Assembly: GCF_000170915.1 (NCBI RefSeq)
Contig: NZ_ABCT01000001.1
Location: 496,001 to 560,000 of the forward strand
Reading direction: 5' to 3'
DNA length: 64,000 bases
Source: Limnobacter sp. MED105
GTDB lineage: Bacteria; Pseudomonadota; Gammaproteobacteria; Burkholderiales; Burkholderiaceae_B
In this document: piece after piece, positions 39,913 through 56,639 of the stretch
Layout: each line of letters starts with the position of its first letter
Position numbering within the stretch: the first letter of the stretch is position 1
The notes under the pieces: model-generated
Databases searched by the model: none
Told to the model about the DNA's origin: nothing
The model's input: the letters and a program-made list of their open reading frames with translations, nothing else
Made by a program: the position numbers and the translations under genes

Positions 39913-41115
39913 ATGTTGCACTACCTTAAATTCACCACTTTTCCGCTGATTGCCATTGGTGTGATGCACGCCATGATGCAGGGCGGTGCGTGGATGTACA
40001 CCGGCATTGCCGCGTTGGTGCTTGTTGTGGCTTTGGGCGATGTGTTGCTGCCCGATGATCGCAGCGAGCCCCGCATGGAGGGTGAGTTTTTTCTGAATTT
40101 GATGTTGTGGCTGACACTGCCAATTTTGATGTGGGTGACGCTTTGTTTCACCTGGGCGGTAGCGCCGGTGGATGTATTGGGCATTGACGCATTCATGAAG
40201 AACACCTTCGGTTATGACCGTTTGCAATTGCAAGCGGACACCACCTGGTACCAATGGTTTGTGGGCGCGGTGGCGGGTGCATTTTTGTTTGGTGCCGGTG
40301 GCACCAATGTTGGCCATGAGTTGACCCACCGCACCTACAGTATGCGCGACATGATTTTGGGCCGCTGGATGCTGGCGTTTACCTGTGATGCTTCTTTTGC
40401 GATCGAGCATGTATACGGTCACCACAAAAACCTGGGTACACCTGCTGACCCTGCCACGGCCCAGCGCGGCGAGAATGTGTACGGCTTTGTACTGAAAAGC
40501 ACCATTGGCGGTTACAAGTCGGCCTGGAAGTTGGAAAAGCAACGCCTGGCCAAGTTCAATCAATCCGTGTGGAACCCGATTCACAGTCGCATGATGCGCG
40601 GTAATTTGATGAGCTTGAGTTTGTTTGCTGCATCGTTCTACATCGGTGGTTGGGCTGGGGTAGTGATGTTCTGGATCATGAGCGCGGGCGGCAAGACCCT
40701 GCTTGAAATCGTGAACTACATGGAGCATTACGGCATTGTTCGTCGTCCTGAAGACAAGGTAGAACCACGTCACAGCTGGAACACGAATGCTTCGGTGTCG
40801 ACTGCTTTGTTGTACGCGCTGACCCGCCACTCGCACCACCATGCTGAGGCAGATCAGGAATACTGGAACCTGCGCAGCTATCGTCATGCGCCCATGTTGC
40901 CCACAGGCTATCTGGGCACTATTTTGCTGGCCTTGGTGCCACCACTTTACAAAAAAGTGATGACGCCTTTGTTGAACCACTGGGATGAAACCTTTGCCAC
41001 GCCGGAGGAGAAAAAACTGGCGATTGATGCCAGTGTGAAGAGTGGTATGAAAGGTTTGAAATCTGCCCAGTTGGGGCAGCAGACTGGCCAACAACTGAAC
41101 CGCGCTGCCGCGTAA
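39913..41115 (+). CDS. alkB: Membrane alkane 1-monooxygenase (AlkB family)
   Basis: AlkB hydroxylates the terminal methyl of medium or long alkanes at a diiron centre in the inner membrane. The 400-residue protein has several membrane helices and the three His motifs: HELTHR near residue 135, EHVYGHHKNLGTPADPATA near 165 and RHSHHHAEADQEYWNLR near 306. The additional NYMEHYGIVR region is also typical. It is followed after 12 bases by a ferredoxin/reductase gene, so electrons come from that protein rather than from a separate rubredoxin. The related XylM enzyme is an alternative, since XylM/XylA has the same pairing. Confidence 0.88.
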   Translation: MLHYLKFTTFPLIAIGVMHAMMQGGAWMYTGIAALVLVVALGDVLLPDDRSEPRMEGEFFLNLMLWLTLPILMWVTLCFTWAVAPVDVLGIDAFMKNTFGYDRLQLQADTTWYQWFVGAVAGAFLFGAGGTNVGHELTHRTYSMRDMILGRWMLAFTCDASFAIEHVYGHHKNLGTPADPATAQRGENVYGFVLKSTIGGYKSAWKLEKQRLAKFNQSVWNPIHSRMMRGNLMSLSLFAASFYIGGWAGVVMFWIMSAGGKTLLEIVNYMEHYGIVRRPEDKVEPRHSWNTNASVSTALLYALTRHSHHHAEADQEYWNLRSYRHAPMLPTGYLGTILLALVPPLYKKVMTPLLNHWDETFATPEEKKLAIDASVKSGMKGLKSAQLGQQTGQQLNRAAA

Positions 41116-41127
41116 AGGGAGAGCATC

Positions 41128-42201
41128 ATGAAATTGCTTGAATGGTTTGGATTGCAGGGTGGTGCAGCGGCTGGCAAAAAAGGCAAGGTAACGCACAAGG
41201 TGAGTGTGGCCCCGGGTGGGCAAAGCTTCGAGGTGGAGAAAGGCCGTAAGGTTATTTTGAATTCTGCCTTGTCGGCAGGTTTGGGGTTTCCACACAATTG
41301 CCGTGTGGGCAGTTGCACGCAATGCAAGTGCAAGCTGAAAAGCGGCAAGGTGCGCGAACTGACCGATTCAAGTTATGTGCTGAGCGCCGAGGATTTGAAG
41401 GCTGGAATGATCCTGGCCTGTCAGTCCATTCCGGAAACTGATCTGGAAATTGAAGTGGAGTTGACCTCTGGCGGTGACCGTTTGGTTGAAACCCGCGGCA
41501 CGATTGTGGGCCAGAAAGATTTGACGCACGACATTGTGGAATTGCGTGTGGCGCTGGATGATCCGATGCCTTTCAAGGCAGGTCAATATGCTGAAATTCG
41601 ACTTGAAGAATTCAGCCTGTCCCGCAACTACAGTTTCGCGATGGCACCAAAAGGCCAAGAAGCCAATGAACTTGTTTTTCATGTGCGCAAGGTGCCTGGA
41701 GGCAAGTTCACTGAATGGTTGTTTGCAGCCAATCGACAGGAAACCCGGTTAAGTATGAGTGGACCGTTTGGTGATTTTTATTTGCGCCCCGCCGAAGGTG
41801 AGAAGCCAGCGCCGATTGTTTGTGTGGCCGGAGGAAGCGGCATGGCTCCTATTTTGAGTTTGCTGGAACAGGCGAAATGGGCTGGTGAAACCCGGGATGC
41901 GGTTTATTTATTTGGCGCACGCACACAGCGCGACTTGTATGCGGATGAGGAAATTGGTCGAGTTCAGCAAGGTTGGAGAGGTTCGCTGAGTTTCAAGCAG
42001 GTGTTGTCAGAAGAGCCTGCCAATTCGAGCTGGAACGGTGCGCGTGGTTACGTGACAGACGAGTTGGACAAGCTTGAGCTGGACTGGCCTCAGGTTCAGG
42101 CTTACCTGTGCGGGCCGCCTGCGATGATTGATGCGGCGATTGCCAAGTTTTCGAAGTTGGGTGTGAAAGCTGAGAATATCCGTTACGACAAATTCGAGTG
42201 A
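41128..42201 (+). CDS. Ferredoxin-NAD(P)H reductase fusion, electron donor to the monooxygenase
   Basis: This 357-residue protein has an N-terminal plant-type [2Fe-2S] domain with NCRVGSCTQCKCKL near residue 57 and the fourth Cys in ILACQS near 98. The FAD-binding domain has LSRNYSFA near residue 170, and the NAD-binding domain has VCVAGGSGMAPILSLLEQA near 232 and YLCGPPAMIDAAI. The layout is that of XylA/PrmB-type reductases. It is co-transcribed with alkB and ends before a clear terminator. The N-terminal 25 residues before the ferredoxin core are basic and Gly-rich. Confidence 0.9.
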   Translation: MKLLEWFGLQGGAAAGKKGKVTHKVSVAPGGQSFEVEKGRKVILNSALSAGLGFPHNCRVGSCTQCKCKLKSGKVRELTDSSYVLSAEDLKAGMILACQSIPETDLEIEVELTSGGDRLVETRGTIVGQKDLTHDIVELRVALDDPMPFKAGQYAEIRLEEFSLSRNYSFAMAPKGQEANELVFHVRKVPGGKFTEWLFAANRQETRLSMSGPFGDFYLRPAEGEKPAPIVCVAGGSGMAPILSLLEQAKWAGETRDAVYLFGARTQRDLYADEEIGRVQQGWRGSLSFKQVLSEEPANSSWNGARGYVTDELDKLELDWPQVQAYLCGPPAMIDAAIAKFSKLGVKAENIRYDKFE

Positions 42202-42268: not shown

Positions 42269-43099
42269 TCAGACAGGCAGATTGCCGGTAATTGCATCAA
42301 GTGGCAATGCGTCTGCAGGATTGGGTGCTGAGCCGATTGGCAAAGATCCCAAGGCATCAAACAATGGATCGGAAATCACCGACAAGGGTGTGCCTCCAAG
42401 CGCGTCGGCCAAGGGGTCGAGTACTGCATCCAGTGGCGTACCAGTGGTTCCTTCGTTGACTGGATCAGTGGGTTCCTCTGGTTCTTCTGGGTTGTCGACA
42501 GGATCTTCCGGATTCTCTGGGTCTTCTGGATTTTCACTTTCGTCGGGGTTCTCGGGATTGTCAACTGGGTCTGTGGTTTCATCGCCATTGTCTACGCGGA
42601 CATCAGTAAAGGCAGAACCTTCCACGTTGGTGTCGTCTCCAGAGGATGCTGCAAGGGCGGCCACACCGACACCTCCACCGATTGCAGTGGCAATACCGCT
42701 GACACTGCCAGCAGTGCCCGCAGATAGCAGACCTGCACCAACCAGTCCGCTAAAGCCTGTGCCTGCATCGGCCAGCAAAATTGCACCATCGGTGCCTTCG
42801 CTGACTGCAAATAGTTCGACGCCCTCTGTTAACGAGGTTACTTCAATCATGCCGCCTTCTGCGGCTGAGTTGGTGGCAATTTGAGCTGCGGATTCTGGGG
42901 CCAGGGTAACCAGAGAATCAGCTTGGCCAGCCGCTTGACCGGGTAGCTCAATATCCACTGCGACCAAGTCCTTGTTCTGTAGAACGTCACCAGCCAGAAT
43001 TGCATCGCCTTGACGCAAAGTGAGTTGCTCGCCCTGGCGTTGAACCAAAAGCTTGTCGGTTTTTGAGGCAATGGTGCCAATTTGAGGTGCCGTGCTCAT
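42269..43099 (-). CDS. Acidic repeat protein with N-terminal FecR-like/retention-type module (short paralog)
   Basis: This 276-residue protein has no assigned family. Residues 1-70 (IGTIASKTDKLLVQRQGEQ, then GDAILAGDVL) resemble the small N-terminal beta module found in LapA/BapA-type adhesins (retention or prefix domain) and FecR-like proteins. A Gly/Ala-rich hydrophobic segment at about 112-145 ([13 protein letters not shown]...) comes next. An Asn/Pro/Glu/Asp-rich linker at about 165-205 and two TPLDAVLDPLADALGG-like repeats end the protein. The same order of parts is in the 1025-residue neighbour upstream, so they are paralogs. There is no Sec signal peptide and no RTX motif. The role is unknown; a surface or envelope function is inferred. 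Confidence 0.7.
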   Translation of the reverse strand: MSTAPQIGTIASKTDKLLVQRQGEQLTLRQGDAILAGDVLQNKDLVAVDIELPGQAAGQADSLVTLAPESAAQIATNSAAEGGMIEVTSLTEGVELFAVSEGTDGAILLADAGTGFSGLVGAGLLSAGTAGSVSGIATAIGGGVGVAALAASSGDDTNVEGSAFTDVRVDNGDETTDPVDNPENPDESENPEDPENPEDPVDNPEEPEEPTDPVNEGTTGTPLDAVLDPLADALGGTPLSVISDPLFDALGSLPIGSAPNPADALPLDAITGNLPV

Positions 43100-43215: not shown

Positions 43216-46200
43216 TTAGGCAGTTGGCAGGCCTGGGATAGTTGGCAGGTCATCGGCGCCGGGCAGTGAGCCCAGTGGTGAGCCTGTGCCACCCAGCAGA
43301 TCTGTCAGGGCAGATGGATCTGTCGGAATTGGCAGACCACCCGCATCTGGCAAACCGCCGCCAGCCAGATCAGTCAATGGAGCCAATACTGCGTCCAGAG
43401 GTGTTCCGGTTGGGCCTTCGGTACCACCTTCGCCACCAGGCAAGCCTGGGATTGTTGGCAAACCGCCGCCAGCCAAATCAGCCAGTGGAGCCAGTACTGC
43501 GTCCAGAGGTGTTCCGGTTGGGCCTTCGGTACCACCTTCGCCACCAGGCAAGCCCGGGAGTTCTGGCAAACCGCCGCCAGCCAGATCAGTCAATGGAGCC
43601 AATACTGCATCCAGAGGTGTTCCGGTTGGGCCTTCGCCTGGTTCACCTTCGTCACCGCCAGGCAAGCCTGGGATTGCAGGTGCACCTGGGATACCGCCGG
43701 CCAGCAGGCCGTCCAGTGTCATGGCGCCAGTGATGATACCGTCTTCAATTGGTTGACCAATTGCTGGGATCATTTCGATTGGAGCCACATCCACAAACTG
43801 CTGGGCCGCGCTTTCGATTGGGCCAGCTGTTGGGTTAGGTGCTGGTGTTTCACCACCGGTGTCACCGCCAGGCAAGCCTGGGAGTTCTGGCAAACCGCCG
43901 CCAGCCAAGTCCGCCAATGGAGCCAATACTGCATCCAGAGGTGTTCCGGTTGGGCCTTCACCTGGCTCACCTTCGTCACCGCCAGGCAAGCCTGGGAGTT
44001 CTGGCAAACCGCCGCCAGCCAAGTCCGCCAATGGAGCCAATACTGCATCCAGAGGTGTTCCGGTTGGGCCTTCACCTGGCTCACCTTCGTCACCGCCAGG
44101 CAAGCCTGGGATTGCAGGTGCACCTGGGATACCGCCGGCCAGCAGGCCGTCCAGTGTCATGGCGCCAGTGATGATGCCGTCTTCAATTGGTTGACCAATT
44201 GCTGGGATCATTTCGATTGGGGCTACATCCACAAACTGCTGAGCTGCGCTTTCGATTGGGCCAGCTGTTGGGTTTGGTTCTTCCGGCTCTTCGCCATCGT
44301 CACCGCCACCCATGTCTGGCAAGCCACCGGAACGCAGTGCGTCCACCAGAGGTTCGGTCACAGCTTCAAGAGGTGTGTTGGTGCCGATGTCTTCGATTAC
44401 ACCTGCCAAGCTCTCAGCGAAAACGGCTGGGTCTGCATTTTCCATCAACGCGTCTGTCAAGGGTGACAGTGGAGTTTCAGGCGCGCCACCTTCACCGCCG
44501 CCAGGCAGGCCTGGCAGGGATGGAGCACCGCCGCCAACTGCGTCAGCAATTGGATCAAGGATCACGTCCAATGGTGTGCCAGTTGTGCCGCCTTCTCCTG
44601 GCTCTTCACCTTCACCAGGTTCGCCGCCATCCTCTTCAGCACGTTCGCCACCCAGCAGGTTGCCAACTGTTTCGATGAGCGGTGCGCCGGGGCCAGCCGC
44701 TGATGAGTTGTCAGCGGCTTGTTCTCCAAGGAGCGCTACACCACCGGCCAGGCCACCCGAAAGTTGCTCTGGCAGTTGTCCGCCAGTTGGGTCTTCCCCA
44801 CCGGCCACTACAAATGCCAAACCACCGGTGAGTGGTGCCAAGGGTGCCAGGGCGCTGTTTGGATTGGTCAGGTCAGTCAGGCCTTCCGCCACTTCTTGCA
44901 AGGTGCCGGGTACGCCAGGTGAGCCTGCGTCGGCGTCGCTGGTGCCTACGACTGGTGCCAAAATACCGGCAGTCAGAGGGCTCAATGGGCTGCTGTCAGA
45001 GGCCAAGGTGTTGCCTATAGTGGTTAGGCCTTGAGCCGCACCATCCACTTCGCCCTCGTTTTGAGCTTCAGCAGTAGAGAGTCTGGCGATCATGGTTTGT
45101 GGGGCTGGCTCATTTTCGCTGTATCCCAAGGTTTGTGCCAAGGGATCAACCACTGGGTCCAGTGGTGTTGGCTCAGCGCCTTCCGCCAAACCTTGTGACA
45201 GGTTGCTCACTGTGCCAGCAAGGCCTTCTTGGTCATTGGTGTAGCCCTCTTGAGGCTGACCAACCGTTTCAGCGAGCAAGTTTGCAACACCGGTTGGGTC
45301 TTGGTCTGAAACACTCGCGATGCCATCAGACACTGTAGCCAGGCCGTCAGCCACTGCACCAGTTACTGCGGTGATTGGTGCAAGTGGTGTTTGCTCCAAG
45401 CCGTCGTTCAGTGATTCAACGCCGCCGATCAACCCTGAAGTATCACCTTCTACATCGCTGTCGGAGTCAGAATCGCTGTCGGAATCAGAATCGCTGTCAG
45501 AGTCAGAATCGCTGTCGGAGTCAGAATCGCTGTCGGAATCAGAGTCGCTGTCGGAATCAGAGTCGCTGTCGGAGTCAGAATCGCTGTCGGAATCAGAGTC
45601 GCTGTCAGAATCGGAGTCGCTGTCGGAGTCAGAATCGCTGTCAGAGTCGGAATCGCTGTCAGAGTCGGAATCGCTGTCAGAGTCGGAATCGCTGTCAGAG
45701 TCGGAATCGCTGTCAGAGTCAGAATCGCTGTCAGAGTCAGAATCGCTGTCAGAGTCGGAATCGCTGTCAGAATCGGAATCGCTGTCAGAGTCAGAGTCGT
45801 CACTGGGATCCACGGTGGTTACGGTGTCGTCACCGTCGTCGCTCAGCGCAATCGCGCCAAGGGCCGCACCACCAATTGCTGCGCCTACACCAGCGCCGGC
45901 ACTACCGCCAGCCAACAAACCAGCACCTACCAGGCCTGACATTGTGCCTTCATATGGGGTGAGGATTGCTGAGCTTACTTCATTGTCAATGTCATACAAC
46001 TCAACACCCTCGCTTAGTGCAACAACCTCGGTTCGGTTGGCGCCGTCTGCTACGGTGGAGGTAATCTGTTCCAGCTTTGCTGACGCGTTGGGCGCCAGTT
46101 GCAACAGTGTGTCGCCATGACCAGCAGACACTGCGGGCATTAATACTTCAGCGGTCTGGGTACCAGTGTTGGTTACCACATCATTCCATCGCAAGGCATC

Positions 46201-46293
46201 GCCTTGGCTTAGCTCTACGATTTTGCCACCGCGTTCTACTTGAAGACCGGCAGGCGACTTAATAATTCCCACGTCGGGGTTGGCGTTTTCCAT
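43216..46293 (-). CDS. Serine-aspartate repeat protein with FecR-like/retention-type module and 36-38-residue repeats
   Basis: This 1025-residue, very acidic protein has no known family name. Residues 1-75 form the same small module as in the short paralog ([45 protein letters not shown]). A Gly/Ala-rich hydrophobic stretch lies at 118-150. Residues 164-280 are an almost unbroken Ser-Asp tract. The remaining 740 residues are degenerate repeats around TPLDxVLxPLxDxxGGGLPxLPGLPGG, some nearly identical. Ser-Asp tracts are known from Sdr/Clf adhesins of staphylococci, where they are stalks glycosylated by SdgA/SdgB. No Sec signal, LPXTG or RTX motif is seen. AAGGA precedes the start. A surface or biofilm protein is my inference. 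Confidence 0.75.
43349..44276 (-). repeat. 114/108-base direct repeats and a 438-base duplication inside the repeat gene
   Basis: Units of 108 or 114 bases (36 or 38 codons, core [19 protein letters not shown]) recur. The two units at about 43867 and 43981 are almost identical. A larger block, 43591-43838, is repeated at 44029-44276 (offset 438 bases, 146 codons) with only a few silent changes. Near-identity at DNA level means recent duplication or gene conversion. Confidence 0.85.
45454..45804 (-). repeat. Ser-Asp coding repeat, 351 bases
   Basis: 117 codons of alternating Ser and Asp, built from 18-base units of the form AGCGATTCCGACTCTGAC with many synonymous changes (GAT/GAC, TCC/TCT/TCA-type). 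Silent variation with a constant protein sequence shows that the protein repeat, rather than only slippage, is maintained. Confidence 0.92.
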
Positions 46294-46340
46294 GATTCAC
46301 ATTTCCTTGAGGCTAGAGAGTTTGTTAGGCAAATCCACTG

Positions 46341-46370
46341 CTATAAGCGTTTTACTCACAGGGGATTCAA
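46341..46370 (-). promoter_or_regulatory. Candidate promoter of the Ser-Asp repeat gene
   Basis: On the minus strand TTGAAT and TTATAG are separated by 18 bases, about 48 bases before the start codon. This is a fair sigma-70 match and no better candidate is seen close by. Confidence 0.35.
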
Positions 46371-46728
46371 TCGGATTCAGGAAAATACAAATATCTGGAC
46401 GAATAATTTTCGTCAGTTGGGCAAGATAATTTTGATTGTTAAATTTAATAAAATTAATTAAGAATTGATTGTTGCTGGAAAAGGGTTTGCTGGCTTATTT
46501 ATTGCAATAATTACTTCGATCGATTGTCTTGACTTGCCGTTGTTGAATGCCAAATGAGTGTTATCTAACCGCGATTATTTTTCTGGCACTGATCTTCCTG
46601 GGGGACCTATTTTGGTGGGGGTTCTTCGTAAATATTCGTATGGAGTATTGTAATTTTTGAGCCAACACCATGATCCAAGGTGAGGCCAGGTAGGCCCCAA
46701 GGTAAATTTGTGTATTTTTATTGGCAAT

Positions 46729-46757
46729 TTGAACTTGGGCAATTCACGATATACAAC
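46729..46757 (+). promoter_or_regulatory. Candidate promoter of tamA
   Basis: TTGAAC and TACAAC are separated by 17 bases, about 54 bases before the tamA start. It is a moderate match to the sigma-70 consensus. Confidence 0.35.
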
Positions 46758-46810
46758 TGCGGTGTCAAAGTGTCGGCTCAGGGAGAATTGACTTATCTGT
46801 CCAGGAAAGC

Positions 46811-48607
46811 ATGAAGAAGTTTTTGAGTAACCACAAAAGCGAGGTGATTCGCTGGCTTTGTGCCGCTTGCAGTGCAATAGCCTTTCACATTGGCGTGGTT
46901 TACGCTCAAGACGCGGTCACCGAGTTTGATCCCCCCAAGGTGAGTTACGACGTTCCTGCTGAATTCCAGGACTTGATCGAGCAGTCCACCCAGCAAATTC
47001 GCTCGACTGCACAGGTGAATGACAACGGAGATGCGTGGCAACTATTCAGGCGATTGCGACCGGCCATTCGTGATGCTCTGGGTACAGAAGGTTATTTTTC
47101 TCCCTCAATTCAGCGAGTCGTTGATGAAACAGTTCCCGAAGATGTGGCGCCACCTCTGAACATAAAAATCGAGCCGGGGATACAAAGTAAAATTGTGTCG
47201 GTGGATATTCAATTCGATGGCGAAATCAACAAAGACGAGTTTGCAGAGCGGCGTGAGCGCCTGAAGACCTTGTGGCTTTTGGGAGTTAACCAGCCCTTTA
47301 ATCAAGCTGACTGGAGTGCCAGTAAAGACAGTCTGTTGAGGGATCTGTTGGCCAAAGATTTCGCGGCTGCGACTCTTTCTGAAAGCTTGGCTGATGTTGA
47401 TCCTGAGAAGAATACAGTCGCTTTGAGTGTGGTTTACGACAGTGGTCCGGTGTTTACTTTTGGAGATCTGCAAATTAAGGGATTGACAAAATATCCCCAA
47501 GACCTGGTTTCACGTTACAACACCATCCGCCCCGGTGATCGATACGAGCAAGAACGTCTGTTAAGGCTGCTTGCGGATCTTCAAGGGACAACTTATTTCT
47601 CGGCTGTGGACGTAAAAATTGATGCGGATGATCGACAGCCAGTGAATGTTCCAATCGAGGTCACTGTGATGGAAAGTGACAGCAAGCGCCTTGGTTTGGG
47701 TGCAGGCTACAGTTCCAATACCGGGTTTCGAACTGAGGCCACCTATCAATTCAACAATTTGTTTGATCGAGCCTACTCGCTTGTTACCGGTGTTCGCGTT
47801 GAACAAAAGCGCCAGTCTGCATATGCGGATGTATTCCTTCCCCCGTCAACCCGTGGCATTACCGACTCGGTTGGGGTGGCGATTGATCACCAGGAAATAT
47901 CGAACCTTGAAGTGGATCGATCTTCTGTGGGAGCCATACGAGAATTCAACAAAGGTATCAACGATTACCGTTTGGGCCTGAACTTTCAGCTGGAAGAGCG
48001 AAGCGCGCTTGGCATCAATTTTGGACAAACTCAGGCGCTGGTTGCAAGTTCATCGTGGACAAGAAATGCCGTAGATGATCGCCTGAATCCTTCGGAGGGA
48101 TATATTGCTTTCGGCCAGTTGGCCCTTGCTTCGGAACAGTTTGCTTCCGATCAAGACTTTGTTCGTTTGTATGGTCGAGTGCAGAAGTTTTGGTCGCCTT
48201 CCAGAGAGAATTTATTTTCTGCACGATTCGAGGCTGGTACGGTCGTGGCCAGTGCACGTCGGGATATTCCACAGGATTACCTGTTTCGCGCGGGGGGGAC
48301 CAACAGCCTTCGTGGATTTGACTTTCTAGATTTGGGCGTAATCGATCAAGGTGTTTTGGTGGGGGGGCGTCGAGTGATGATTGGTAGCCTCGAGTACACC
48401 CGGTGGTTTGATGGCGGGCCGCTTGGCGCTGCTGTTTTTACAGATGTGGGTGATGTTGCCGACAACTGGAATGACTTTGATCCCAAGCCGGCAATTGGTG
48501 TGGGGGTACGTTATAAAACCCCAGCTGGGCCTATCGCTTTTGATGTGGCCAAAGCCGCAGACCAGGACAACTTGAGAATTCACTTTGCGCTGGGGGTGGC
48601 ATTTTGA
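46811..48607 (+). CDS. tamA: Translocation and assembly module outer-membrane protein TamA
   Basis: TamA is an Omp85-family outer-membrane barrel that, with TamB, assists insertion of certain surface proteins (autotransporters) and lipid transport between membranes. The 598-residue protein has a signal peptide ending VVYAQD, POTRA domains at about 110-285 (FTFGDLQIKGLTKYPQDLVSRY is a POTRA strand-helix) and a 16-strand barrel from about 290. The barrel has the conserved FRAGGTNSLRGFDFLDLG (the Omp85 RGF motif), and the protein ends in Phe, as outer-membrane barrels do. It overlaps tamB by four bases. Confidence 0.92.
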   Translation: MKKFLSNHKSEVIRWLCAACSAIAFHIGVVYAQDAVTEFDPPKVSYDVPAEFQDLIEQSTQQIRSTAQVNDNGDAWQLFRRLRPAIRDALGTEGYFSPSIQRVVDETVPEDVAPPLNIKIEPGIQSKIVSVDIQFDGEINKDEFAERRERLKTLWLLGVNQPFNQADWSASKDSLLRDLLAKDFAAATLSESLADVDPEKNTVALSVVYDSGPVFTFGDLQIKGLTKYPQDLVSRYNTIRPGDRYEQERLLRLLADLQGTTYFSAVDVKIDADDRQPVNVPIEVTVMESDSKRLGLGAGYSSNTGFRTEATYQFNNLFDRAYSLVTGVRVEQKRQSAYADVFLPPSTRGITDSVGVAIDHQEISNLEVDRSSVGAIREFNKGINDYRLGLNFQLEERSALGINFGQTQALVASSSWTRNAVDDRLNPSEGYIAFGQLALASEQFASDQDFVRLYGRVQKFWSPSRENLFSARFEAGTVVASARRDIPQDYLFRAGGTNSLRGFDFLDLGVIDQGVLVGGRRVMIGSLEYTRWFDGGPLGAAVFTDVGDVADNWNDFDPKPAIGVGVRYKTPAGPIAFDVAKAADQDNLRIHFALGVAF

Positions 48608-51600
48608 AGCGTGGGGTATTCGCTTTATTTACATTCTTGCTGGCTGTAGCCGTGGCTGTCACTGCTGGGGTTCTGTGGGTGGTTCATACTGAACACGGCC
48701 TTCGGTTTGCTGTGGGTCAAGCGCAGGACTGGATGAATGAAAATTCGGATCAACAACTTGAATTCGGCAAGGTTCAAGGCACCTTGTCGCAAGGGTTGGA
48801 TCTTGAGTTTGTTCGATGGAAGCAAGCCGATACCACGGTTGAAATTGAGCAAATTCAGCTCGTAATCGACTGGTCAAATGTATTGAATCGAATGGTTCGA
48901 ATCAGCAATTTGTCGGCACAGGTTGTGCGCGTTGATTCACCGCCTTCTGAAGAAGATTCTCCGCTTGTTATTCCGGATGAAATCAGCGTACCCGTTGATG
49001 TGGACTTGCGTCATCTCAGCGTGCAGCAATTGTTAATCAATGGTGAAGAATTAACGCAGTTGAGTGCTCGGGGTTCGGTTCAATCGAAACAGCTCAACAT
49101 CGATAATTTTTCATTGAATGTGCGGGACACTCAAATCCACTCTTCACTTGAGATGGCGCTGGCGAAACCCTATCAAATGAGAGGTGCAGTGAACGCACAG
49201 CGGAAATTGGATGATTTGTTGCTGAATGCGCAGTTGGCTGCGACTGGCTCTATCGAACGCTTGGCGCTTGCCCTGGATGCCAAAGGGGAAAACCCGGGCA
49301 AGGCGGATCAAACACAGCGTGTGCAAGCCAATGCAGTGCTCACTTTGTTGGGTTCAACTCCGTTTGAAACGGTACGACTGAACGCAGAAAATTTCGATCC
49401 GTCAAATTGGCTGGATGGGGCGCCACGCGCATCACTTGCGATTGTTGCAACGGTAGAGCCCAATGCAGATTTTTCTGAAAGTACAGGCAATTTCTCGGTT
49501 AGAAATGCTCGACCTTCAACCGTTCAGTCGGGTGGGTTACCGTTGTCGTTCATGCGGGCCCGGTTTAATTTGAGCCTGAGGGAGCAACTTCCCGAACAAT
49601 TTGATTTGTGGGTGGATGAGCTCCAGTTGGCCGATGGAAAACGTCAGGCTGGCAATGCGAATGCCTCTATTCAGTGGCGAGCGTCCAAGCAGAGTGACGA
49701 TCAGATTGCCACTCTGGATGTTTTGGCGGGGGATGTGAATTTTGATGTCAAGACCAATAATTTAGATGCTTCTGTATTTGCCAGTTTGCCCCAGCAACTC
49801 GCACTGACCTCTACAATTCAAGGCACCAAGAATGGGCAGCAGTTGCAGGTCAAACGCCTTTCGGTTCGAGATCGGCAAGCAGAACTTCAAGGTAAGTTGC
49901 GTGTGGATTTGCGTGGAAAAGTACCGGTAGATGTTCAGCTTGACTTGAAGGGAATCAACCCTGCCAACTACGTTCCAGATGCCAGTCCATTATTGCAAGG
50001 TGATTTGAACGGAAAAGCCTCGTTCAATGGGGTTTTGGTGCAAAGTGGAAAGGCAGGTGCAGTGGACCCCTTGGGTGAGATCAATCTTGATTTAATGAAT
50101 TCCCGCCTGGCCAACGCCCCGCTTACACTGGTTGCCAAGGCCACTGGCGGGGTTTCTCGCTTAAGCAATATGTTGCTTGATCTGGACGTGGTGGGAAACA
50201 CGGTGAAAGCCACTGGCAGTTATGGAACCCAGTCTGATTTCGTTGATGTGGATGTGAATCTGGATGAACTCGCGCGTCTCGGAAAACTGATTCAGATGAA
50301 ACTTTCCGGGACGGCGCGTTTGAAAGGAAAACTGAGAGGGATTGACGGAAACTTCTCGGGTGAGGGCAATGTTGATGTGCGTCAGTTGAAGCTGGATGAC
50401 ACGATTCAGATTGATACCGTGTCGGGACAGTTCAACCTGGGTTCAGCGCCAAATTCGCCCTGGGTTGGCGACATTGTGGCGAGCAAAGTCAAAGTACCCG
50501 GCGCGGTGACCAACACCTTGAATGAATTAAAGCTCACGCTTCGTGGTGTTCGCAACCAGCATGAGTTACGGGGCGAGTTTGCCAGTGGTTTGCAGCCCTT
50601 TAGTCGTTTGCGTCCGTTGAAAGGCGAGTTTGCATTTGCGGGTGGGGTTGGGGCTTTGCGCACACCGAAAACCGTTTCTGGCTGGAAAGGGCAATGGACT
50701 CAATTGAAAATCGAGGGCATGTGGTTGCCTGCTCGCAGCTTTGCTCTCCAGGCTCCTGCACCGCTCACGATTGCGCCGGGGTATTTTGAGCTCACGAATT
50801 TTGTACTCAAAGGCGAAGACACCTCAGTGTTGAACAACAAAGTGCTTCGTATTGCGAACCGGGAAATACGGGTTGAGGGTGAAATGCCCCAGTTTTATTT
50901 TCCACGAATGTCTCCGATATTGCGCAAGCAACTGACAGTAGAACCCAAGGATCTGATTGCAAAAGTGAAATGGAACTACTTGGCCAATCCCAACAAGGTA
51001 GATGGCCATGTGGATGTGCAGCATGTGTCGGGTGGCTTGCAGGTGCTTGAGGATTCACAGGTGGATGTGGATATTCGAACCATGACTGCAAATCTCGATT
51101 TCAATCGAGAGGCGGCCAGTGTGGACTTGAATATTCTTGCCGATGATTTCGGTGCAGTGACTGCAAATCTGAAACTGCCGGTTCAACAAAACCCGCAAAC
51201 CAAAGCCTGGGAAATTGCAGGCAATGAGGCGATGCAGGGATCGGTGGCGGCCGGATTTACCGAGCTTAACTGGCTGGGCCCCATGATCAGTGGTGGGGTT
51301 AGAACCAGCGGTACAGGCCAGATTGCAATGGCGATTGCGGGCACTGCAAACAACCCCGATGTTCAGGGACGATTGTTTGCGCTGGATCTGGATGTGTTTC
51401 AGCTTGACCAAGGGGTACGCTTTGAAGACGGCAATGTGGTGGTTGACTTCACTACCGACAAGGCCAGTATCGACACTTTTGAGTTCACCGTGTACAACCG
51501 TCGCCCACCTCGCCGCTATATCGAGGAGTTGGGGCCGTTGATTCAGGGCAACGGGAAAGTGAAGGCAGAGGGTGTTTGGAATTTGACGGGTTTGAATGGT

Positions 51601-52656
51601 GAAATCCGCTTGTCCATGGACAGGGTTCCCTTGCTGCAGCGACTCGATCGATGGATGATGGTGAACTCGAGTGTGACGGTGCAGCAACCCAGTGTTGACG
51701 GACAACCCTTAAAGATTCGGGGGGAAGTGGATACCTTGGGGGCATACTTCGAGATGCCTGAGAGTGGTCCTCAAACCCTGGGCGACGATGTGTTCATTCA
51801 AGGGCGCAGTGAACTGGCCGGACAAGGTTTGCCGATAGACCTGCAATTGCGCGCCAATTTGGGTGACCGGTTTTACGTGAACGCTGAAGGCTTGCGAAGC
51901 CGGCTTGAGGGTGGTTTGCGCTTGGTGATGCTTGAGGGGGTTGGTGGCAGTGGGCAGCGTCGATCGGGAAGACGTTTGAGCGCCACCGGCACCATTCAAA
52001 CTGTGAGTGGTACTTATCGCGCCTATGGGCAAGATCTCTCAATCGAGCGAGGCGTGGTTAACTTCCAGGGTCCGCTGGACAACCCGGGGCTGAATGTTCG
52101 TGCTGTGCGCAAGGGCGTGGCTGTTGAGGCGGGTGTAGAGGTAACTGGCACTGCGCAGCGGCCCACGGTCAGTCTGGTCAGTGAACCAGCCGTGCCAGAT
52201 TCGGAGAAGTTGTCGTGGATGATTCTAGGACGAGGAAGTGGTTCGGCAGACCGCGATTCCACTTTGTTGCTGACCGCTGCTGCGGCAATTTTTGGTGATG
52301 AGGACGAAAGTACGACCCGTAAAATTGCGAAATCAATCGGTATCGATGACTTGAGTTTAAGCACAGGTTCCTTGACCGCAGCCGATTCCCGTGCGGTGGG
52401 TAGCAAGGTGGCCATTGCGCCTGGTGCAGATGCTTCCGCAAACGTGATTGGGTCTGATGATCCCTTGCTGTCGCAACGTATTGTGTCCTTGGGAAAACGA
52501 TTCAGCGATCGTGTTTATCTGAGTTTTGATCAATCTGTGACAACAGCGGCCAGTATTTTGAAACTGAACTATCAATACTCACGCAAGCTCAGCTTTATTG
52601 CACGGGCGGGGGCGGACAATGCAGTCGATGTGCTTTATCAATTCTCTTTTGACTGA
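48604..52656 (+). CDS. tamB: Translocation and assembly module inner-membrane protein TamB
   Basis: TamB is an AsmA-like protein anchored in the inner membrane; its long beta-taco groove crosses the periplasm to TamA. The 1350 residues start with one membrane helix (GVFALFTFLLAVAVAVTAGVLWVVH), followed by about 1050 residues of beta-rich repeats. The conserved C-terminal DUF490 domain has GTYRAYGQDLSIERGVVNFQGPLDNPGL near residue 1138 and ends with LNYQYSRKLSFIARAG...YQFSFD. The start is a TTG overlapping the tamA stop (TTGA), which fits translational coupling. Confidence 0.92.
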   Translation: MKRGVFALFTFLLAVAVAVTAGVLWVVHTEHGLRFAVGQAQDWMNENSDQQLEFGKVQGTLSQGLDLEFVRWKQADTTVEIEQIQLVIDWSNVLNRMVRISNLSAQVVRVDSPPSEEDSPLVIPDEISVPVDVDLRHLSVQQLLINGEELTQLSARGSVQSKQLNIDNFSLNVRDTQIHSSLEMALAKPYQMRGAVNAQRKLDDLLLNAQLAATGSIERLALALDAKGENPGKADQTQRVQANAVLTLLGSTPFETVRLNAENFDPSNWLDGAPRASLAIVATVEPNADFSESTGNFSVRNARPSTVQSGGLPLSFMRARFNLSLREQLPEQFDLWVDELQLADGKRQAGNANASIQWRASKQSDDQIATLDVLAGDVNFDVKTNNLDASVFASLPQQLALTSTIQGTKNGQQLQVKRLSVRDRQAELQGKLRVDLRGKVPVDVQLDLKGINPANYVPDASPLLQGDLNGKASFNGVLVQSGKAGAVDPLGEINLDLMNSRLANAPLTLVAKATGGVSRLSNMLLDLDVVGNTVKATGSYGTQSDFVDVDVNLDELARLGKLIQMKLSGTARLKGKLRGIDGNFSGEGNVDVRQLKLDDTIQIDTVSGQFNLGSAPNSPWVGDIVASKVKVPGAVTNTLNELKLTLRGVRNQHELRGEFASGLQPFSRLRPLKGEFAFAGGVGALRTPKTVSGWKGQWTQLKIEGMWLPARSFALQAPAPLTIAPGYFELTNFVLKGEDTSVLNNKVLRIANREIRVEGEMPQFYFPRMSPILRKQLTVEPKDLIAKVKWNYLANPNKVDGHVDVQHVSGGLQVLEDSQVDVDIRTMTANLDFNREAASVDLNILADDFGAVTANLKLPVQQNPQTKAWEIAGNEAMQGSVAAGFTELNWLGPMISGGVRTSGTGQIAMAIAGTANNPDVQGRLFALDLDVFQLDQGVRFEDGNVVVDFTTDKASIDTFEFTVYNRRPPRRYIEELGPLIQGNGKVKAEGVWNLTGLNGEIRLSMDRVPLLQRLDRWMMVNSSVTVQQPSVDGQPLKIRGEVDTLGAYFEMPESGPQTLGDDVFIQGRSELAGQGLPIDLQLRANLGDRFYVNAEGLRSRLEGGLRLVMLEGVGGSGQRRSGRRLSATGTIQTVSGTYRAYGQDLSIERGVVNFQGPLDNPGLNVRAVRKGVAVEAGVEVTGTAQRPTVSLVSEPAVPDSEKLSWMILGRGSGSADRDSTLLLTAAAAIFGDEDESTTRKIAKSIGIDDLSLSTGSLTAADSRAVGSKVAIAPGADASANVIGSDDPLLSQRIVSLGKRFSDRVYLSFDQSVTTAASILKLNYQYSRKLSFIARAGADNAVDVLYQFSFD

Positions 52657-52668
52657 TTTCAGGACAAC

Positions 52669-55600
52669 ATGATTAATCCTGCCAGACTTGAAAAACTGGG
52701 TAATTGTTTTTCAAAACTCGGTACCACACCGAGTCAAGAACCCTGTGTCTTGATGTTGTCTAGTTCGAATGGGCTTGAGCGAGCCCAGGTAGAAACGTTT
52801 GTTGGTCAGTCGTTTGAAACTGGCTGGAATGCACTGTGTTCCCATGCCTCTGCTTTTTTTGATAAAACAGGCGTTGATTATGAATATGTCCGCGTGGATC
52901 GGGTTTGCGAGGTCAAGAGAACCAACTGGGCTGCACTGAAGGTGCTGCTTTCAACAACGAAACGAAATTACTTCAGTTACGGGATCGCGCTGGATCCGCA
53001 ATTCGAATATTCCTTTTTGTGGGGCGAACTCAACGGCAATGCCATGTTGTATGGCGGTTCGGAGGAAGGGTTTTCTAAGCTCAATGTTGGGAATTTCGAA
53101 AAATATGCTCGAAAGAAATATGGCCAGTCCTTCGCACTGAACCATGATGATGAGCAACCGGTGTACCTGTTTTTGACGCAGGGTGCCTACATTGGCACAG
53201 ATGAAATAGTGCACCACCTGGAGGAAGATGGTGTGGCTGTGGGACGCCGCCAGTTACCCGATCTGGATGTGCAATCAAGTAGCGAGCTGGTGTTGAATGC
53301 CAGTGAGTTTTTGGCGCGTCAGGTCAAGGACAACGGTTTTTTTGTATACGGACTGTTTCCATGCTTTAACAAGGAAATTCCAACTTACAACACGCTTCGT
53401 CATGCAAGTTCCACCTACGCAATGATTGAAGCGTGGGAAGTGACCCAAAGTGTATTTTTGAAGTCGGCGATTGACCGTTCGCTGCATTGTTTAACGAATG
53501 AATTGATCAAGCAGATTGAGTTAAGTGGTGGAATTCAAGCTGCCTTTTTGGTCGATACGGGAAATGAAATCAAGCTGGGTGGGAATGCCGTGAGCATTCT
53601 TGCACTGGCTAAATACACCGAGCTGACTGGCACCCGCGAATACATTGAATTGATGGAGAAACTGGCCCAGGGCATTGTCGCCATGCTGAATCCGGATACT
53701 CGTCAATTTGTGCACGTGTTGAACTACCCCGACCTTACCGTCAAAGAACAATTCAGGATCATTTATTACGATGGTGAGGCCGCGTTCGCTCTCATGCGTT
53801 TGTACAAAATCACTCGCAGGGCAAGATGGCTACAAGCGGTTGAATTGGCTTTTGAATACTTTATTGCTGCGCGTCACTGGAAAGCAAATGATCACTGGAT
53901 GAGCTACTGCGTCAATGAGCTCACTTTGTATCGACCCAAGCGTGAGTATTTTGAGTTTGGAATTCGCAATTTTTCGAATCATCTCGATTTTGTATTAACT
54001 CGTATCACCACCTTTCCCACGCTGCTTGAGTTGATGATGGCTGCGCAACAAATGCTCTCGCGTTTGCAAGCCATGCCCGAGTTTGCTGACTTGTATTTAC
54101 AAGTGGATACCGAGAAGTTTTACCGTGCTTTGCACTGGCGTGCCAATTACTTGACAACCGGGTATTTTTGGCCTGAGTGGGCGATGTACTTTGCGAAGCC
54201 CGACACGCTGAATGGCTCATTCTTTATTCGGCATCATGCTTATCGGGTGCGCATTGACGATGTCGAGCACTATGTGTCGGGCTTGGTTGCTTACCGGAAG
54301 TTTCTGATTCAGGGTGAGTTGAATCAAGCTCAGGAAACGGCCAGGCCAAACACCTTGTTGAATGCAAAAGCGGAAGAAACTACTTTTTGGTTCTTGAACC
54401 AGAATTTTGGTTTCCAGCGTTCTGGTGTAGAGAATGCAGCATTGCTTCGCTACCGGGTTTTTGATCAGGAAATGCAGTTGCAGCCCGTGTTGTTGACCTG
54501 TCGTTACAATCCGCGACTGCATGAGTCAATCGACAAGCTGGTGGCCAACAAAGCCTTGCCCGCGTCCTCGCAGTGTCGATCCGTTTACGATTATTTTCAG
54601 AATGCTGAAGTGGTTTCAAGGCAGCTGAATACCGGACAATCTTTTTTTGATAATCCAATGTTACGGTGCCAGTTGCTGGCGGACAGGCGGGATATCCGTG
54701 TGATGAGCCAACATGGACAATTGTTGATGTATGTGGTTCGAAATCCGGTCAATGACGCGCTTATTCACATTAACCATTTTTCGGAAGGCGTGAAGTTCCG
54801 AAAGGATTATTACGACAGCCGTGGATTTCTAAGTTGTGTCCAGTATTTGGATGCAGGGGGCGCGGTTAGCCATGAGCATTATTTGCGCCCCGATGGCACC
54901 TTGGCCATTGCGAAGCTTTACAAGCGAATCGATCAAAAATCACAGCTGTCCAATATTCGTTTGCATGATTCGACCGGAGTGCTGGTCGCCTGTTTGTTCA
55001 GTGAGTCAGAGTGGCTGACTTTTGCGTTGGTTTCCATGCTGAAGGCCAAGGGCGGCAAGCATGTGTTGGTGGTGGACAAGAATCGGTATTGGTATTTGCC
55101 TGCAATCGCGGCGCGTGACCAATTGCATCAGGAATCGTCTGGTCAGGTGGCAGTGGTGCCGATTATTCACGCCCTGCACACCCATGCTGTCGACAACCTG
55201 GCAACAAGTCCGACCAACTCCAATTTCAGGGATATATTGCACGATATCAAACGTCCTGATGCAATCATCACGCTGACTAATCAGCAAATGAATGACATCT
55301 CCTCAAGATATGGCAACGGGCAACTATTTCCGATTGCTCACTCCTGTGAAGTAAAAGACTCGATTCCCGATTTTGAAACCCGAGACCGATTTCGTATCGT
55401 CTCTATGGCCAGGTACAGTCCCGAGAAAAACCATCATTTGGCGATCGCAGCTTTCGCCAAGGTGGTCAAGAAGTATCCTCAAGCGCGCCTTGATTTTTAT
55501 GGTTTCGCGGTTGCGGGAAGTTCACTGTTGTCTGACTTGAAGGCGCAAGTTGAATCCTTGGGCTTACAGAACCATATTGGTTTGAATGACTGGACTGATG

Positions 55601-55941
55601 CGCCTGCAACCCATTACCTTCGCGCAGGCTTGTCCTTGTTGACCAGTCAGGCCGAGGCTTATTCACTGGCCATTATGGAAAGTCTTTGTCACGCATGCCC
55701 CGCGATTGCGTTTGATGTTCCTTATGGACCATCGCATTTAATTGTGCACGGCGAAACCGGCTTGTTGGCTCCTTTCGGAGACACTGAGGCGCTTGCCGAG
55801 CAAATCATTTCGGTGTTTGATGACAAGGAGTTTCACAAATGCATGAGCGTTAAGGCCTTTGCGTTGGCGAACCGATTCAGTCACGCCGAGGCGGCGCGCC
55901 ATTGGCGCCAATTGTTCTCAGCTGTTGGAGTGCTGTCATGA
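52669..55941 (+). CDS. Large two-part glycosyltransferase: helical barrel domain plus GtfA/TarM/SdgB-like GT4 domain
   Basis: This 1090-residue cytoplasmic-looking protein has no signal peptide. Residues 1-185 are unassigned. About 195-570 look like an (alpha/alpha) barrel, with repeated helix pairs (STYAMIEAWEVTQSVFLKSAI, YDGEAAFALMRLYKITRRARWL). About 660-760 form a beta-meander with HINHFSEGVKFRKDYYDSRG and YLRPDGTLAI, as in GtfA, TarM and SdgA/SdgB. About 790-1085 are a GT-B family 4 domain with SMARYSPEKNHHLAI (donor domain) and the E-x7-E motif in EAYSLAIMESL, followed by VPYGPSHLI. The target is probably a protein or polymer rich in Ser; the Ser-Asp protein at 43216 is the obvious candidate (inference). 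It starts 12 bases after tamB. Confidence 0.82.
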   Translation: MINPARLEKLGNCFSKLGTTPSQEPCVLMLSSSNGLERAQVETFVGQSFETGWNALCSHASAFFDKTGVDYEYVRVDRVCEVKRTNWAALKVLLSTTKRNYFSYGIALDPQFEYSFLWGELNGNAMLYGGSEEGFSKLNVGNFEKYARKKYGQSFALNHDDEQPVYLFLTQGAYIGTDEIVHHLEEDGVAVGRRQLPDLDVQSSSELVLNASEFLARQVKDNGFFVYGLFPCFNKEIPTYNTLRHASSTYAMIEAWEVTQSVFLKSAIDRSLHCLTNELIKQIELSGGIQAAFLVDTGNEIKLGGNAVSILALAKYTELTGTREYIELMEKLAQGIVAMLNPDTRQFVHVLNYPDLTVKEQFRIIYYDGEAAFALMRLYKITRRARWLQAVELAFEYFIAARHWKANDHWMSYCVNELTLYRPKREYFEFGIRNFSNHLDFVLTRITTFPTLLELMMAAQQMLSRLQAMPEFADLYLQVDTEKFYRALHWRANYLTTGYFWPEWAMYFAKPDTLNGSFFIRHHAYRVRIDDVEHYVSGLVAYRKFLIQGELNQAQETARPNTLLNAKAEETTFWFLNQNFGFQRSGVENAALLRYRVFDQEMQLQPVLLTCRYNPRLHESIDKLVANKALPASSQCRSVYDYFQNAEVVSRQLNTGQSFFDNPMLRCQLLADRRDIRVMSQHGQLLMYVVRNPVNDALIHINHFSEGVKFRKDYYDSRGFLSCVQYLDAGGAVSHEHYLRPDGTLAIAKLYKRIDQKSQLSNIRLHDSTGVLVACLFSESEWLTFALVSMLKAKGGKHVLVVDKNRYWYLPAIAARDQLHQESSGQVAVVPIIHALHTHAVDNLATSPTNSNFRDILHDIKRPDAIITLTNQQMNDISSRYGNGQLFPIAHSCEVKDSIPDFETRDRFRIVSMARYSPEKNHHLAIAAFAKVVKKYPQARLDFYGFAVAGSSLLSDLKAQVESLGLQNHIGLNDWTDAPATHYLRAGLSLLTSQAEAYSLAIMESLCHACPAIAFDVPYGPSHLIVHGETGLLAPFGDTEALAEQIISVFDDKEFHKCMSVKAFALANRFSHAEAARHWRQLFSAVGVLS

Positions 55942-56639
55942 CTGCTGTTCAAACCGCAATTTCTTTACTCACCGTGTTCGACTGGATCGCGGTGGCATTT
56001 TTTGTGATCTGCTTTCGCGGTTACAACTACGTGTTTGACGGGCGCAGTCGCTTTGGCAGACGCGGATTGTCGCAAAAAACGCATGAATTCCGAAAGCTGT
56101 GGGCGCGTGAAATGCTTGCTCGAAGCAACCGCGTTGGCGACACGGCCTTGATTGGCAACCTGGTCAACAGCGTTACTTTTTATGCCAATACCACGATCTA
56201 TATTATTGCGGGTTTGTTTGCCTTGTTGGGTACGCTGGATCAGTTGGTCAATATCACCAGCGATTTGCCTTTCAGCCGGGAGGTTAGCCGAGGGCTGATG
56301 GAAATCAAAGTGCTGTTGGTTCTCACGGTGTTTGTGGTGGCTTATTTTAAATTTACGTGGAGCTTGCGCCAGTTCAACCTGCTGACCATTTTGGTAGGAG
56401 CAGCACCCGACGGAAACCCGGACAAGGAATACAACGAGGCTTATGTGTCGCGGATGGCGCGCATCAACAGCCTGGCCGGAGATGAATTCAACCGCGGATT
56501 GCGCAGTTATTATTTCGGAATTGCCTCGGTCACCTGGATGATTCATCCTGGTTTACTGGTGGCATTCAGTGCTTTGATTGTGTTGGTGTTGATCCGCAGG
56601 GACTTCTATTCAGAAGCCCTGGAGATCATGTCGAAGTAA
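55938..56639 (+). CDS. DUF599-family membrane protein
   Basis: This 233-residue inner-membrane protein has about four hydrophobic segments: residues 12-32, 80-105, 125-150 and 200-222. The family pattern is visible in RKLWAREMLARSNRVGDTALIGNLVNSVTFYANTTIYIIAGLFALLG and FKFTWSLRQFNLLTILVGAAPD. The function of DUF599 is unknown. The ATG at 55938 overlaps the glycosyltransferase stop (ATGA), so it is the last gene of tamA-tamB-GT-DUF599. It is convergent with amtB, 12 bases apart. Confidence 0.8.
   Translation: MTAVQTAISLLTVFDWIAVAFFVICFRGYNYVFDGRSRFGRRGLSQKTHEFRKLWAREMLARSNRVGDTALIGNLVNSVTFYANTTIYIIAGLFALLGTLDQLVNITSDLPFSREVSRGLMEIKVLLVLTVFVVAYFKFTWSLRQFNLLTILVGAAPDGNPDKEYNEAYVSRMARINSLAGDEFNRGLRSYYFGIASVTWMIHPGLLVAFSALIVLVLIRRDFYSEALEIMSK

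Follow-up and report, generated by a model that had tools for sequence, protein, structure and literature searches.

The window analysed here, a stretch of 64,000 nucleotides from Limnobacter sp. MED105 (contig NZ_ABCT01000001.1), contains two divergent genes: one encodes a protein with a tract of alternating serine and aspartate (Ser-Asp, SD), and the other an enzyme of 1090 residues that lies between tamB and a DUF599 gene. We propose that the two products form a dedicated modification pair in which the enzyme O-glycosylates the serines of the tract, a reading to which we give a probability of about 0.75. The evidence was obtained by computation, and consists of homology, catalytic residues, the co-variation of enzyme type with tract type, and a swap of both at one locus. 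The features concerned, with their coordinates in the window, are as follows:

42269..43099, minus strand: paralogue of the tract protein, 276 residues, without a tract
43216..46293, minus strand: tract protein, 1025 residues, from the list of open reading frames (ORFs); zero Pfam families
45454..45804, minus strand: Ser-Asp tract, residues 164-280 (117 residues) of the 1025-residue protein
46811..48607, plus strand: tamA (Omp85/POTRA families)
48604..52656, plus strand: tamB (TamB family)
52669..55941, plus strand: enzyme gene (glycosyltransferase), 1090 residues (Glycos_transf_1 family)
52669..54345, plus strand: GtfC-like half of the enzyme, residues 1-559 (alpha/beta part about 1-195, (alpha/alpha)6 barrel 197-553)
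54385..55914, plus strand: SdgB-like GT-B half of the enzyme, residues 573-1082 (E996-x7-E1004, H834, YGPS)
55938..56639, plus strand: DUF599 gene (DUF599 family)

The original prediction had described a 1025-residue protein with a 117-residue SD tract, divergent from a tamA-tamB-glycosyltransferase-DUF599 series. The ORFs and families are as it stated, and the tight junctions are confirmed as well: a 4-base overlap (TTGA) joins tamA and tamB, a 12-base gap separates tamB from the enzyme gene, and a 4-base overlap (ATGA) joins the enzyme gene and DUF599, provided that DUF599 starts at the ATG at 55938.

The C-terminal half of the enzyme is closest to SdgB of Staphylococcus. For residues 573-1082 the best NCBIfam model is SdgB (213.8 bits, E 3.9e-63), followed by SdgA (185.3 bits) and then GtfA, and a phmmer search of the PDB gave as best match 7ec1 (E 1.1e-49), near-identical to 7ec3 and 7vfl, with TarM and Gtf1 far below; TarM and GtfA were ruled out as the closest glycosyltransferase because SdgB scores better. 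The entry 7vfl is SdgB, in which His246 and Glu406 hold the sugar (PMC8561734; this and the other citations refer to the available parts of each paper). These two residues align to H834 and E996 of the Limnobacter enzyme (phmmer alignment, counted by hand) and are kept, and the E-x7-E motif, with its second Glu at 1004, and the YGPS motif named in the original prediction are present in the sequence. The predicted likeness to this group is borne out by both NCBIfam and the PDB, although it starts at about residue 573 and not at 640. The phmmer alignment runs through the region of the inserted DUF1975-type beta domain, where Pfam gives Asp1 at 678-757 (3.4e-6) and GtfA_EBD at 0.11; identity to an S. 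epidermidis SdgB-like protein is 24%. The half thus shares with SdgA and SdgB the homology over 573-1082, the E-x7-E motif, the equivalents of His246 and Glu406, and an SD-tract protein nearby, and differs in being fused to a barrel and in its scores, which lie far under the 800-bit NCBIfam cut-off of both models; because that cut-off is missed, it is best called SdgB-like, not SdgB.

More can be learnt from the N-terminal half of the enzyme, for which the original prediction offered no explanation. It matches no Pfam family over residues 1-559, and its likely fold is an epimerase-like (alpha/alpha)6 barrel of the AGE superfamily / GH76 type, closest to cellobiose 2-epimerase; a separate profile search of solved structures with the barrel gave a best E of 0.032. 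This half matches 538-residue proteins adjoining tract adhesins in staphylococci, with 37-40% identity over 494-535 residues to the homologues of S. epidermidis, S. haemolyticus and S. capitis; judged by length, layout and a printed primer, these homologues are very probably GtfC, so that the 1090-residue enzyme looks like a natural fusion of GtfC with an SdgB-type partner. At the Pls locus of methicillin-resistant Staphylococcus aureus (SCCmec type I), an SD-repeat protein lies beside the 538-residue GtfC and the 503-residue GtfD, in convergent orientation; GtfC is not classed as a glycosyltransferase by CAZy, gtfC and gtfD both act in Ser glycosylation of the Pls SD repeats, and the modified Pls increases biofilm (PMC5230774). 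The pls-gtfC-gtfD layout recurs on an S. epidermidis plasmid (L295), where GtfC-like and SdgB-like proteins are encoded by separate genes near an SD tract. Unlike the Pls system, the Limnobacter enzyme parts form one polypeptide, in a Gram-negative bacterium and in a tamAB operon, and the tract protein has neither an MSCRAMM domain nor an LPXTG end (its C-terminus reads ...PGLPTA).

The tract protein consists of a beta-rich N-terminal module (about 1-115), a Gly/Ala-rich segment, the SD tract, and a Gly/Pro/Asp-rich repeat tail; in an AlphaFold2 model of residues 1-157 the mean pLDDT (the predicted local confidence score) is 77.2, and about 90 for residues 10-110. Among the window's ORFs of at least 100 residues, the SD tract is the sole alternating-Asp tract of at least eight pairs, and in 1000 shuffles of the protein the longest alternating S/D run was 7, against the 117 residues observed. 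The best stretches for the NCBIfam Sdr/Clf models, at 153-310, coincide with the tract region and stay far under cut-off; neither BapA_N nor any other Pfam family matches the protein. The family to which it belongs is present in 14 of 16 Limnobacter genomes (13 of 15 apart from the window genome, G000 in our genome numbering). The window genome has seven members, two of which bear an alternating-Asp tract; the tractless ones (on contigs C31, C37 and C22, at C38:15953, and at 42269-43099 of the window) have a common N-terminal module and variable repeat tails.

Within Limnobacter, the type of enzyme goes with the type of tract. An SdgB-type enzyme is accompanied by an SD tract in the orthologue in seven of seven genomes (G000, G001, G005, G007, G011, G012 and G013; in G001 and G013 the tract is interrupted by the contig end), and a MurF-like second half by an Ala-Asp (AD) tract in three of three (G006, G008 and G009), with enzyme and tract at one locus in G006. 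Genome-wide tract queries of the four genomes lacking a GtfC-like domain (G003, G004, G014 and G015) gave neither SD nor AD tracts in long ORFs, and the family members read bear Asn-Thr or Gly-Thr repeats (for G015 this covers a single member out of five, located away from tamAB). Neither the tract-protein family nor the enzyme gene was found in G002 and G010, which are 85 and 65% complete. In the window genome itself both tract-bearing family members adjoin a GtfC-like gene: the SD protein of the window is next to the SdgB-type enzyme, and on contig 38 an AD protein of 512 residues is divergent from a 1024-residue GtfC-like plus MurF-like enzyme.

The swap is seen in L. parvus (G006, locus L088), where at the same locus the tract protein keeps 142 of 163 residues ahead of the tract and 248 of 298 behind it, but the tract is (AD), 261 residues long, as against (SD) and 117 residues in the window. 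In place of the SdgB-like half, the L. parvus enzyme has a MurF-like one (murF 1.8e-76, 257.8 bits against a cut-off of 288.6); cyanophycin synthetase, at 7.6e-11, was rejected as the closest Mur relative, as murF scores better. The module has the Mur-ligase likeness of MurF and cyanophycin synthetase, and differs from them in being fused to a GtfC-like barrel and in falling under the murF cut-off. A tree of 105 barrel domains (quick method, with SH-aLRT support only) groups L. parvus with the seven SdgB-type rows at a support of 99, the seven alone at 89. Only two of the 16 Limnobacter genomes, both of SdgB type, encode another protein with a pure SD tract, unrelated to the first (G007, locus L169, an 897-residue ORF at C1:781014; G012, locus L192, an 850-residue ORF at C6:95088), which is consistent with the pairing, the two cases being too few for an orthologue test; it is possible that this protein is a second substrate in trans.

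Outside the genus, SdgB-type fusions near SD tracts were also found in Klebsiella aerogenes, in G281 and on an E. coli plasmid, those of Klebsiella and G281 forming a separate clade of the barrel tree (support 100). The SD tracts lie within about 5 to 8 kb of the fusion in G281 (146 Ser) and Klebsiella (376 and 120 Ser), and likewise in the relative on the E. coli plasmid (592 and 101 Ser); in Klebsiella and on the E. coli plasmid, type I secretion genes stand between fusion and tract. Three of 5426 E. coli genomes carry the SdgB-type fusion, and one of the three was examined. In G046 a stand-alone SdgB-like glycosyltransferase precedes a Ser-rich S/D/T/G repeat protein. In each barrel fusion examined, the SdgB-type module occurs with SD; the Mur-type accompanies AD in most cases but not in all, and some barrels have no tract nearby.

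The barrel family at large comprises at least 559 relatives in GTDB genomes, of which the best 80 loci were kept, leaning to close relatives and Variovorax. An alternating-Asp tract of at least eight pairs was present in the available flank of 49 of these 80, and in 33 of the 47 loci whose flanks reach 9 kb or more on the upstream side and 6 kb or more on the downstream side; a control of 20 hand-placed 20-kb stretches from five genomes of the window's family gave none. By enzyme type, the tract accompanies GtfC-like plus Mur in 24 of 25 of the 47 loci, the same with a CapA-like part in 3 of 10, SdgB-like fusions in 4 of 4, the barrel alone or with BLAST-unassigned parts in 2 of 7, and CapA-like only in 0 of 1; in the 14 tractless loci, no clear other acidic tract was seen among the five lowest-complexity ORFs per locus. 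All seven of the 49 tract loci with a glycosyltransferase half are Ser-majority (six SdgB-like, all Limnobacter, and one with a family-2 glycosyltransferase, L092), whereas only two of the other 42 are, namely L093 (Fic plus Mur) and L104 (truncated at the contig end). In 120 relatives including the window genome, which are related to one another so that Fisher values overstate the association, a tract was found in 12 of 14 genomes with a GtfC-like domain versus 1 of 106 without, under a rule (an ORF of 150 residues or more with a tract at least 85% identical to pure SD or AD) that was fixed after the hits had been seen; it leaves out G015 (short ORFs), G026 (eight pairs), G046 (mixed repeat, no barrel), G085 and weaker matches elsewhere, any tract match at all being found in 28 of the 120. 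In an even sample of 398 Pseudomonadota the barrel is present in 14, window genome included, and the SdgB model matches at E 1e-25 or below in four: the window genome, G281, and two short glycosyltransferases without a tract. Apart from the window genome, five genomes of this sample gave a tract: G281 an SD one, G487 an SD one beside a Mur-type enzyme, G168 and G222 tracts of mostly AD beside Mur, and G419 a Gly-Asp tract that accompanies the barrel alone. The G419 tract, (Gly-Asp)n with about 89 pairs (locus L291, 6287-9457, plus strand), lies immediately before a stand-alone GtfC-like gene.

Several observations weigh against the proposed pairing. Besides the SdgB and SdgA scores far under cut-off, no signal peptide was recognised in the tract protein (judged by eye only), and no secretion gene adjoins it in the window. 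The seven, three and four Limnobacter cases are not 14 independent events, because the SdgB-type ones form one clade; G008 and G009 have their MurF-type enzyme on another contig or far from the tract proteins; and G015, apart from the single family member read, has AD-like hexanucleotide repeats in ORFs of 54-114 residues, many at contig ends, which look like microsatellites and occur without a GtfC-like gene. Ser tracts accompany a Mur-type enzyme in L093, L104 and L279, an AD tract occurs without a GtfC-like domain in G052, and a mixed x-Asp tract without a barrel in G085. Outside Limnobacter the 120-genome comparison falls to 2 of 4 versus 1 of 100, and at 15 loci of the 13 other barrel genomes of the phylum sample a tract was found in 5 of the 15 fetched stretches, several of them short.

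As we picture the pair, the 1090-residue enzyme would O-glycosylate serines of the neighbouring protein's tract in the cytoplasm, before export: the SdgB-like half would move a sugar, probably an N-acetylhexosamine, from a nucleotide sugar to Ser, and the GtfC-type half would act on the same tract, by binding it, by extending the first sugar or by altering it. This scheme predicts the reaction, the sugar, when and where it is attached, and a function in surface adhesion or biofilm; by comparison with Pls (PMC5230774), a glycosylated tract would stiffen and protect the surface protein and aid adhesion. The enzyme gene would be a cassette riding in the tamAB-DUF599 operon: G003, G008 and G009 have no enzyme gene at this site, and DUF599 (first possible start) follows 11 bases after tamB. 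The claim that the enzyme would modify the Ser-Asp protein gains support, at the level of sequence comparison, from SdgB as closest relative, from the co-variation in Limnobacter and from the pairing in other lineages. The original prediction had named, as one case that would speak against this link, the enzyme occurring widely with tamAB in genomes without a Ser-Asp or Ser-rich protein; in the genus the opposite was found, the three genomes with tamAB-DUF599 and no enzyme at that site having no SD tract.

The GtfC-type half would further be a shared platform for alternating-Asp tracts with an exchangeable second module, matched to the tract as SdgB-type to Ser-Asp and MurF-like ligase mostly to Ala-Asp. 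Other fusion partners of the barrel are CapA-like (one matching a lasso-peptide epimerase model at 1.2e-22), Fic, methyltransferase, ATP-grasp YheC/D, VanY (L064) and S11 D,D-carboxypeptidase (L113) domains, a range that suggests one platform with exchangeable chemistry. Loci L282 and L285 have the barrel fused to a YheC/D-type ATP-grasp ligase, for which no tract was seen, and L093 and L289 combine it with a Fic-type and a Mur-ligase domain, Fic being recognised by Pfam in L289 only (E 0.0006) and by eye in L093, which adjoins a pure SD tract. Public annotation calls the barrel proteins of L229-L233 and L295 'poly(glycerol-phosphate) alpha-glucosyltransferase' or 'Mur ligase family protein'; the barrel's own fold is not GT-B, and these names may derive from fusion partners. 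In its widest form, which we advance tentatively and at less than even odds, the barrel is a general, unnamed platform that modifies alternating-Asp tracts of surface proteins in Gram-negatives and Gram-positives alike, Ser-Asp being served by sugar transferases or Fic and Ala-Asp by MurF-like ligases that amidate Asp carboxylates. The ligase would form amide bonds on Asp, whose carboxylate is the sole reactive side chain in Ala-Asp tracts, possibly with D-Ala-containing units as MurF does; the fused VanY and S11 domains would trim the added units, an arrangement that could even tie adhesins to peptidoglycan.

Among the alternatives to the modification pair, the one that survives best, which we still hold rather unlikely, is that the SdgB-like half alone modifies the tract and the barrel is a separate sugar-handling domain, for example a donor-supplying epimerase. 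The barrel's closest fold, cellobiose 2-epimerase, speaks for it, and with the COL genes GtfC was dispensable for the initial glycosylation of Pls, but with the 1061 genes it was needed as well (PMC5230774), and the barrel is found beside tract proteins alone or with non-glycosyltransferase partners (Listeria L233, S. capitis L296, the Mur fusions). We consider it improbable that the tract is a passive spacer whose residue type drifts by repeat expansion while the enzyme targets another part of the protein. Dipeptide tracts are easily expanding DNA repeats, and the tract's Ser codons keep an 18-nt register throughout (every third AGC/AGT, the rest TCT/TCC); the microsatellite-like (AD) stretches of G015, in short ORFs and with no enzyme, and the Ser tracts that accompany Mur-type enzymes also fit a spacer. 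Yet the S/D alternation is unbroken although the codons are mixed, L. parvus differs from its kin in both tract type and enzyme module at a single locus, and the SdgB-type/SD pairing arose again in the Klebsiella/G281 clade, although no swap is visible there, its closest neighbours on the tree showing no tract. That the enzyme instead serves an envelope glycan or capsule pathway with TamAB or DUF599, its nearness to the tract protein being fortuitous, would suit the layout, which implies cotranscription with tamAB and DUF599, a further TamAB adjacency outside the genus (G487, L278) and the membership of TarM and Gtf1 in the same structural group, but is made quite unlikely by an SdgB score far above TarM, by the tracking of tract presence and type by enzyme presence and type in the genus, and by the enzyme family's occurrence near tract proteins without TamAB in many genera.

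Parts of this picture are already known, namely SD and AD tracts in Gram-negative adhesins (PMC4647330, PMC5588039) and SD glycosylation in staphylococci. BapA of Paracoccus denitrificans, a biofilm adhesin with 891 Asp-Ala repeats, has an alternating-Asp tract like the Limnobacter protein; it migrates above its mass, and its authors did not exclude a modification (PMC5588039). The available main text of that paper names no modifying enzyme for BapA, and 'glycosyl' and 'mur ligase' are absent from it. Pxm of P. denitrificans was rejected as the missing enzyme, being a phosphoglycosyltransferase (Pden_0842) encoded away from bapBCD (PMC13235738, PMC5588039). The beta-type BAP proteins of Acinetobacter, like the Limnobacter protein, show SD/AD tracts in a Gram-negative, near lap type I secretion genes; in the available main text 'glucosyltransferase' does not occur, and 'glycos' occurs once, in a reference (PMC4647330). 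The assertion that the set had no described Gram-negative counterpart accordingly fails for such adhesins beside type I secretion genes and stands for a modifying enzyme, none being named in the available parts of these papers. Among the matches listed for open-licence PubMed Central titles and abstracts, we found no report of Asp-Ala tracts as targets of a GtfC-like or Mur-type enzyme, of SD-tract glycosylation in a Gram-negative, or of such a Gram-negative enzyme or enzyme/tract matching rule; the MurF-type arm may be new.

The pairing would extend SD-tract glycosylation of the staphylococcal style to Gram-negatives, as a single fused enzyme, and provides the little-understood GtfC with a probable fold and many relatives. 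The joint difference in enzyme module and tract residue between L. parvus and its kin amounts to a natural experiment, and the co-variation of enzyme half and tract residue hints at a widespread decoration of bacterial surface proteins. If the Mur-type arm is true, Asp would be the modified residue in BapA and other giant Asp-Ala adhesins. To our knowledge, no Asp modification of this kind has been reported in biofilms.

For TamAB, the suggested aid in envelope delivery is not supported. Of the best 80 loci, only the seven Limnobacter loci L083-L089 have TamA/TamB like those of the window close to the enzyme family (BLAST), and a Pfam search found no autotransporter beta domain in the tract protein. 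The sole TamAB adjacency seen outside Limnobacter is L278 (G487:C16), where tamA, tamB and a GtfC-like plus CapA plus Mur gene stand in a row. A retention module in the tract protein of the LapA type was not supported (an hhalign comparison with a profile built from six N-termini taken to be LapA-type gave a probability of 4.5), and a search of the window genome for type I secretion ABC proteins gave 34 matches, none over cut-off, an uninformative result. The pair of tract-protein family genes in the window is flanked, at 39913-42201, by genes for an AlkB-like protein of the fatty acid desaturase family and for a protein like ferredoxin reductase, and this flanking recurs in the Limnobacter loci L061-L063, L065, L068 and L070-L072.

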